The notes under the pieces: generated by a model | Databases searched by the model: none | Told to the model about the DNA's origin: nothing | The model's input: only the letters and a program-made list of their open reading frames with translations | Part shown: one piece after another, positions 7,760 through 8,689 of the stretch | Position numbering within the stretch: the stretch's first letter is position 1 | Layout: the number at the start of each line of letters is the position of its first letter | Made by a program: the position numbers and the translations under genes | Source: a virus | DNA length: 41,570 nucleotides | Direction: 5' to 3' (one strand) | IMG/VR virus record: IMGVR_UViG_3300025896_000052 | Span: 1-41,570 of that record

Positions 7760-8389
7760 ATGGAAGGTAATAATAATGCAGCACTAGAGAATCGCGATTA
7801 CGTAATCGTGTTGGATAAATCAGGATCTATGGGTGATACAGATACACCTACAGGCCAAAGCCGTTGGGCTTACGCTCAAGAATCTACAGAAGCTATCGCA
7901 AGAGAAGTTTCTAAGATCGATAAAGACGGTATCACAGTTATTCCGTTTTCTAGCAGCTTCAAAGTCTATGAAAATCAGACTGAGTCAAAGTTGAAAGAAA
8001 TCTGGAAAGAACAAAGTCCAGGCGGCGGTACTACGCTTGCACCAGTGTTGAAGCAAGTTTTTGCTGACTACATGAAGCGCAAAAAAGCTGGTCAAACAAA
8101 ACCGAACGGCGAAGTTCTTCTCGTAGTCACTGATGGTCAGCCATCAGATGAAAAAGAAGTAGCGCAAGAAATTATTCGTTTCGGAAATCAACTTGATAAC
8201 GCCGATAGCGAATACGGTATCAGCTTCATCCAAGTTGGTAAAGATCCGGGCGCAACTCAGTTCTTGAAAAAGCTTGACGACAATTTGACTAGCCAAGGTG
8301 CTAAGTACGATATCGTCGATACTAAGACTATGGACGAAGTTGAACAAATCGGTCTCACTGAGACTTTGATGGCAGCTTTGAACGACTAA
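7760..8389 (+). CDS. stand-alone von Willebrand factor A domain protein
   Basis: A 209-residue protein that is almost exactly one VWA fold. The metal-ion-dependent adhesion site is complete: DKSGS (Asp19, Ser21, Ser23), Thr91/Thr92 in GGGTTL, and Asp125 in VVTDGQPSD. Such domains bind Mg and a partner acidic residue and usually mediate protein-protein contacts with AAA ATPases, chelatases or tellurite/stress systems. There is no signal peptide, so it is cytoplasmic. The ribosome binding site AAAGGAAA is strong. No MoxR-type ATPase partner is encoded here, so the partner may be a host protein. Confidence 0.9.
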   Translation: MEGNNNAALENRDYVIVLDKSGSMGDTDTPTGQSRWAYAQESTEAIAREVSKIDKDGITVIPFSSSFKVYENQTESKLKEIWKEQSPGGGTTLAPVLKQVFADYMKRKKAGQTKPNGEVLLVVTDGQPSDEKEVAQEIIRFGNQLDNADSEYGISFIQVGKDPGATQFLKKLDDNLTSQGAKYDIVDTKTMDEVEQIGLTETLMAALND

Positions 8390-8395
8390 AAATTC

Positions 8396-8501
8396 TTCCC
8401 CTCGCCCGGTGGGGAAACAAAGTTGACCGGGCATCATTACGCCCCGAAGTCCCGCACGTAACACCCCCTAGGTGCCGGGCGTTCCAAGCTTCGGGGCACC
8501 A
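8396..8501 (+). ncRNA. candidate structured RNA: pseudoknot followed by long bulged hairpin
   Basis: This 140-base gap holds no open frame but strong pairing. TTCCCC (8396-8401) pairs with GGGGAA (8411-8416), and its 9-base loop contains GCCCGGT (8404-8410), which pairs perfectly with ACCGGGC (8426-8432), making an H-type pseudoknot. Next, GCCCCGAAG (8441-8449) pairs perfectly with CTTCGGGGC (8489-8497), enclosing CCCGCAC (8451-8457) paired with GTGCCGGG (8472-8479) with one bulged base. The last stem is followed by ACCA. The element ends 28 bases before the ATG at 8530. It could be a leader RNA controlling that gene, a processed 3' UTR, or a free small RNA. There is no T-tract. Confidence 0.55.
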
Positions 8502-8529
8502 TTTAAAACAACATAACAAGGAAGTATTT

Positions 8530-8658
8530 ATGTTTACACTTTTATTCGGCATCGGCGTAGGATACACTATCTGTTACATTCAAACTCGTTTCGGAAGCGC
8601 TTTGAAAGTTGCTAAAGAAAAGTTTGAAAAGAAAATTGAAACTGAATTGAAAAAATAA
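8530..8658 (+). CDS. 42-aa membrane-anchored peptide
   Basis: The ATG follows AAGGAAG. The N-terminal 18 residues are hydrophobic with a glycine spacing (LLFGIGVGYTICYI), fitting one membrane span. The remainder is a lysine/glutamate-rich helix (KVAKEKFEKKIETELKK). The protein is likely an inner-membrane peptide with a cytoplasmic coiled tail. Its function is unknown. The structured RNA directly upstream may control it. Confidence 0.65.
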   Translation: MFTLLFGIGVGYTICYIQTRFGSALKVAKEKFEKKIETELKK

Positions 8659-8661
8659 AAG

Positions 8662-8689
8662 TGACTATTAGCGTATACGCTAATAGTCA
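8662..8689. repeat. 28-bp perfect palindrome
   Basis: TGACTATTAGCGTA (8662-8675) is followed immediately by its exact reverse complement (8676-8689). It sits three bases after the stop of the 42-codon gene. On the upper strand it is not followed by a T-tract; on the lower strand it is followed by CTTTTATTTTTT, so it would terminate leftward transcription better than rightward. An operator or a transcript-end stabilising hairpin is also possible. Confidence 0.6.

Follow-up and report, generated by a model that had tools for sequence, protein, structure and literature searches.

In the phage genome studied here, the gene of a VWA-domain protein and the gene of a small membrane protein are separated by a gap with dense base pairing, which raises the question of what role an RNA structure could have at this place. 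The initial annotation had proposed a new phage RNA, such as a riboswitch or a protein-binding leader. We analysed the complete record of an uncultured phage from IMG/VR (41,570 bases, in the following the window). The terminase of the window found no phage in a tblastn search against the GenBank phage collection, which places this phage far from sequenced isolates.

Anatomy and stability of the structured gap

The intercistronic gap comprises 140 nt on the + strand (8390..8529). Its GC content locally reaches up to 70%, whereas the flanks have about 40% and 30%. The pairings that had been described for positions 8396-8501 are present at these coordinates and sit inside the gap. They start, 7 nt after the VWA stop codon, with an H-type pseudoknot on the + strand (8396-8432). 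The initial description of a 6-bp stem whose loop pairs through seven perfect bases with a downstream segment is exact: the 5' arm of stem 1 (S1; TTCCCC, 8396..8401) is fully complementary to its 3' arm (GGGGAA, 8411..8416), and the 5' arm of stem 2 (S2; GCCCGGT, 8404..8410) is fully complementary to ACCGGGC at 8426..8432, which gives two interlocked stems of 6 and 7 bp. From the stem positions, loop 1 is derived as 2 nt (TC, 8402..8403) and loop 2 as 0 nt; loop 3, which lies between the stem arms, has 9 nt and is A-rich (ACAAAGTTG, 8417..8425).

The pseudoknot is followed by a long hairpin (8441..8497, + strand), which was found by folding of 8439-8501. The 9-bp perfect stem described earlier is exact (8441-8449/8489-8497) and is extended by one T-G pair to an outer stem of 10 bp (8441-8450/8488-8497). 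In contrast, the enclosed stem is not a continuous 7-bp stem and consists of 4 + 3 bp (CCCG/CGGG and CAC/GTG, 8451-8457/8472-8479) with a bulged C at 8475. A one-sided bulge of 8 nt (8480-8487) separates the inner from the outer stem. The tail after the hairpin (ACCATTTA) contains no U-tract, and the combination of a GC-rich hairpin and a U run that characterises intrinsic terminators is thus absent.

Folding of the hairpin region (8439-8501) results in a minimum free energy (MFE) of -30.5 kcal/mol and in a pair probability above 0.999 for the outer stem. To estimate how much structure is expected by chance, the gap was compared to shuffled sequences. The nested MFE of the + strand has a z-score of -3.0 (2 of 200 shuffles were equally good); the fold of the minus strand is ordinary (z = -0.6). 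A 9-bp perfect stem was present in 90 of 3,000 dinucleotide shuffles. An H-type pseudoknot of 6/7 bp within the same loop limits occurred in one of the 3,000 (6/6 bp: in 6), as did stem and pseudoknot together, although these frequencies flatter the pseudoknot since the thresholds were chosen after the feature had been seen. Furthermore, the pseudoknot is the only H-type pseudoknot of 6/6 bp or better found on either strand of the 41.6-kb window. The claim that the gap is more structured than expected by chance thus holds.

A nested folding program is unable to represent S1 and S2 at the same time; for 8396-8432 it picks S2 alone (-14.1 kcal/mol). The duplex energies of the two pseudoknot stems, including duplex initiation, are -8.7 and -13.3 kcal/mol. 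Pseudoknots usually carry a penalty of around 10 kcal/mol. By this estimate, the knot should have an advantage of several kcal/mol, and it is predicted to form. A competing pairing of CGCCCGG (8403-8409) with CCGGGCG (8475-8481) was also considered and has a negligible ensemble probability.

The gene pair and its joint in related phages

The gene upstream of the gap (7760..8389, + strand) encodes a protein of 209 aa, which was assigned to the VWA domain by Pfam (VWA_2, E 7e-10; weakly vWA-TerF-like), by PHROG 5359 (E 3e-15) and by its relatives. These relatives are 28-61% identical and occur in phages and cyanobacteria; the cyanobacterial ones are found on plasmids as well as in genomes, and at least 80 loci in IMG/VR contain a relative. 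As stated in the initial annotation, the gap directly precedes a small membrane-protein gene (8530..8658, + strand). The encoded protein of 42 aa has a single helix (MFTLLFGIGVGYTICYIQTRFGSALKVAKEKFEKKIETELKK), and the probable ribosome-binding site of the gene, an AAGGAAG-like motif read from the sequence (8516..8522, + strand), lies outside the structure. Many viral VWA genes are followed by a gene for a protein of about 39-50 aa that has a single hydrophobic helix as well as two conserved glycines. The 42-aa protein of the window belongs to this group and is 45% identical to the protein that follows VWA in L034. No model in Pfam, PHROG or NCBIfam names the small protein; for the one in L061, there is a single weak match to a PHROG of unknown function. 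We conclude that VWA and the single-helix membrane protein of about 40 aa are a recurrent, unnamed pair in diverse uncultured phages and prophages (L016-L111).

Two further observations concern the surroundings of the pair. In L016, L018 and L019, the next gene after the pair is TerC-like, as read from the sequence. By eye, tRNA-like sequences were seen shortly downstream of VWA in L017, L021, L047 and L053.

The distance between the VWA stop and the next start falls into two main classes among the relatives, namely near zero (L032, L033, L034, L037, L050, L073, L082-L090 and others) and 33-67 nt. In the first five of these, the gap is at most 4 nt or the genes overlap and there is no structure; thus, the gene pair works without it. 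A different picture emerges for the 33-67-nt class. A hairpin of at least 6 bp was found in all 16 distinct gaps between VWA and the membrane-protein gene compared to 27 of 86 control gaps, which have equal length and stem from the same loci. Hairpins of at least 9 bp were present in 14 of the 16 gaps and in 10 of the 86 controls (Fisher p = 3e-9); the p-values for the hairpin excess range from about 1e-7 to this value and overstate the case, as the length class was picked post hoc and the 16 gaps include interrelated ones. Despite the post hoc choice and the kinship, 16 of 16 is a large difference from the controls, where hairpins occur in 12-31% of the gaps. This supports that some structure has been selected at the joint. 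When windows of 60 nt after the VWA stop were analysed instead, the excess of structure was modest: z was below -2 in 41% versus 25% of cases, as the two genes lie without a gap in many relatives. The signal is clear when only real gaps are considered.

The hairpins of the relatives start 4-16 nt past the VWA stop, close to the next ribosome-binding site. Their sequences are unrelated and include no terminator-grade U-tract. Within each of the sibling pairs L056/L068 and L064/L096, the stem has undergone base changes that preserve the pairing. With a lax criterion, the gaps of relatives contain a small possible pseudoknot in L069, another in L101, whose gap is longer, and no further one. The pair does not depend on the pseudoknot: where its two genes occur in relatives, they are separated by simple hairpins of unrelated sequence or are not separated at all.

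Proposed protection or insulation of the VWA message

Given that hairpins recur at the same site, the gap is best explained by an ordinary regulatory role. We propose, with a probability of roughly 50%, that the element is an intercistronic structure that stabilises or insulates the 3' end of the VWA message and to which a pseudoknot was added in this phage. The structure, probably transcribed together with both genes, would fold just behind the VWA stop codon and would most likely block 3'-5' exonucleases from attacking the VWA message at its 3' end. It would also separate this message from the membrane-protein cistron, whose ribosome-binding site would stay open, such that the two proteins could differ in amount although they come from one transcript. 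The pseudoknot may be an extra roadblock gained in this lineage.

Such structures are known from bacteria. In E. coli operons, hairpins without the U-tract of a terminator stop 3'-5' exonucleases (PMC5927463), and upstream operon segments are stabilised by such hairpins (Dar and Sorek, PMC5927463). The element of the window resembles these decay-protective stem-loops (malEFG, puf and menBCE type; PMC5927463) in that a stable hairpin lies between or behind the cistrons of one operon, the upstream gene ends just before it and no terminator uridine tract follows. It differs from them by the pseudoknot in front of a larger hairpin and by its location in a phage operon, where protection is putative. 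In addition, no terminator was called on the + strand at the structure.

In the most economical interpretation, these phages use the joint of the VWA and membrane-protein genes as a site for RNA structures, which separate the fates of the two messages. Phages seem to have repeatedly placed different hairpins at this joint, and the window would contain an elaborate natural variant. If the hairpins determine how much of each product is made relative to the other, the stoichiometry of the pair would matter for its function.

Alternative roles of the element

We first consider that the element is independent of its neighbours, either as a separate structured RNA (an sRNA or a member of an unknown class) or as an unselected GC-rich insertion. 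A GC content far above that of the flanks and the absence of the element from every relative searched are consistent with this. Nevertheless, we regard it as unlikely, as structure recurs at this very place in relatives, no promoter-like site was called on the + strand between VWA and the element, and there is no other copy in the window or in the collections searched. The searches covered several sources. The Rfam covariance models, whose use on the window had been suggested in the initial annotation, gave no match at the gathering score, and up to E = 10 all scores were at chance level. No match at the element was found by ARAGORN (tRNA and tmRNA). A nucleotide search of phages and plasmids with the element resulted in chance matches only (E about 5), and IMG/VR, scanned three times with exact patterns of the pseudoknot core and the hairpin top, yielded only unrelated, mostly apparently protein-coding sequence. 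In 14 related virus records, nothing beyond matches of 14-19 nt was detected. The helicase relatives L002, L003 and L024-L030 have no VWA gene in the stretches fetched and thus contribute no homologous gaps; one of them carries a tandem hexamer repeat array of the GGTCT(C/T) type (L003:4140-4300).

By eye, the element also fits none of several known RNA or DNA elements: Pistol and HDV-like ribozymes differ in arm order and by a P2 helix that is missing here, and in an integron attC site GTT...AAC would be in another order. A tRNA-like reading of the hairpin together with the ACCA after its stem was dropped, as it comprises 61 nt and its T and anticodon arms are not of normal size; the ACCA is taken as a coincidence.

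Alternatively, a phage protein might bind the pseudoknot and repress the small membrane-protein gene or VWA, in analogy to gp32 at gene 32 of T4. In T4, the operator pseudoknot lies 67 nt upstream, and behind it comes an A+U-rich stretch that is unstructured and contains UUAA(A) repeats (PMC3014915). The window shares with T4, T2 and RB69 (PMC3014915) a compact H-type pseudoknot in phage mRNA, here a predicted one with a 2-nt loop 1 and a 7-bp S2, and an A+U-rich stretch over the start region of the downstream gene (UUUAAAACAACAUAACAAGGAAGUAUUUAUG). However, its pseudoknot is further from the start (about 100 nt upstream, with a 57-nt hairpin intervening) and is located between two genes. The downstream gene encodes a 42-aa membrane protein rather than a DNA-binding protein, so that the pseudoknot is not in the leader of a single-stranded DNA-binding protein gene, and no gp32-like gene is adjacent. 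Furthermore, relatives of the gene pair have no pseudoknot of similar size. An operator of this kind thus appears quite unlikely.

A related possibility is that the 106 nt of pseudoknot and hairpin form a self-standing structured RNA from an undescribed class, which would bind a factor of the phage or the host and thereby control the gene pair; we regard this as improbable. As a homologue turned up in none of the collections that were searched, neither the riboswitch or protein-binding leader nor the new phage RNA of the initial annotation is supported; since the element is unique among all sequences searched, a new phage RNA family is unproven. If such a regulatory RNA existed, it would be the second pseudoknot in phage mRNA used as a regulator after that of T4 gene 32. 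The latter may be the only viral pseudoknot in translation autoregulation according to a review of T4 (PMC3014915), and a second one would therefore deserve probing.

A long hairpin with a one-sided bulge could also be a site where RNase III cuts the transcript to separate the two cistrons. The processing signals of T7 have the general shape of a bulged double-stem hairpin between genes, and the anatomy of the hairpin in the window agrees with it. The hairpin of the window differs by its shorter stems (only 10 bp below the bulge, and an inner stem of 7 bp that itself has a bulge), by the pseudoknot in front and by the lack of any shared sequence. The hairpins of the relatives are short, simple and probably too short for RNase III. 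Processing by this enzyme is therefore improbable as well.

That the structure acts as a leaky terminator or attenuator of transcription and reduces expression downstream is likewise improbable. Relatives do include a hairpin with six T at the VWA joint (L036) and terminator-like hairpins after VWA (L042 and L044), but in the window the structure is followed by ACCATTTAAAAC and has no terminator call on the + strand. Rho-dependent effects may act at the element. The least probable role is programmed -1 frameshifting, in which the pseudoknot would cause a fraction of the ribosomes to pass the VWA stop and make a fusion of VWA, linker and membrane protein: the pseudoknot is near the usual spacing from the stop, and the gap, described earlier as having no frame, indeed has no start codon before 8530 but is open in the -1 frame to VWA from 8386 into the small gene (8386-8658), whereas the last 90 nt of VWA (8300-8391 scanned) contain no slippery heptamer (X XXY YYZ, 5-9 nt before the structure), the -1 frame is equally open in about 22% of shuffled gaps, and by their gap lengths the two genes occur in all relative frames among the relatives, such that frameshifting at the VWA stop is unlikely.

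Directly past the stop of the membrane-protein gene, the window contains a perfect palindromic hairpin of 12-14 bp (TGACTATTAGCGTATACGCTAATAGTCA, 8662-8689), which was called as a terminator on the minus strand only.
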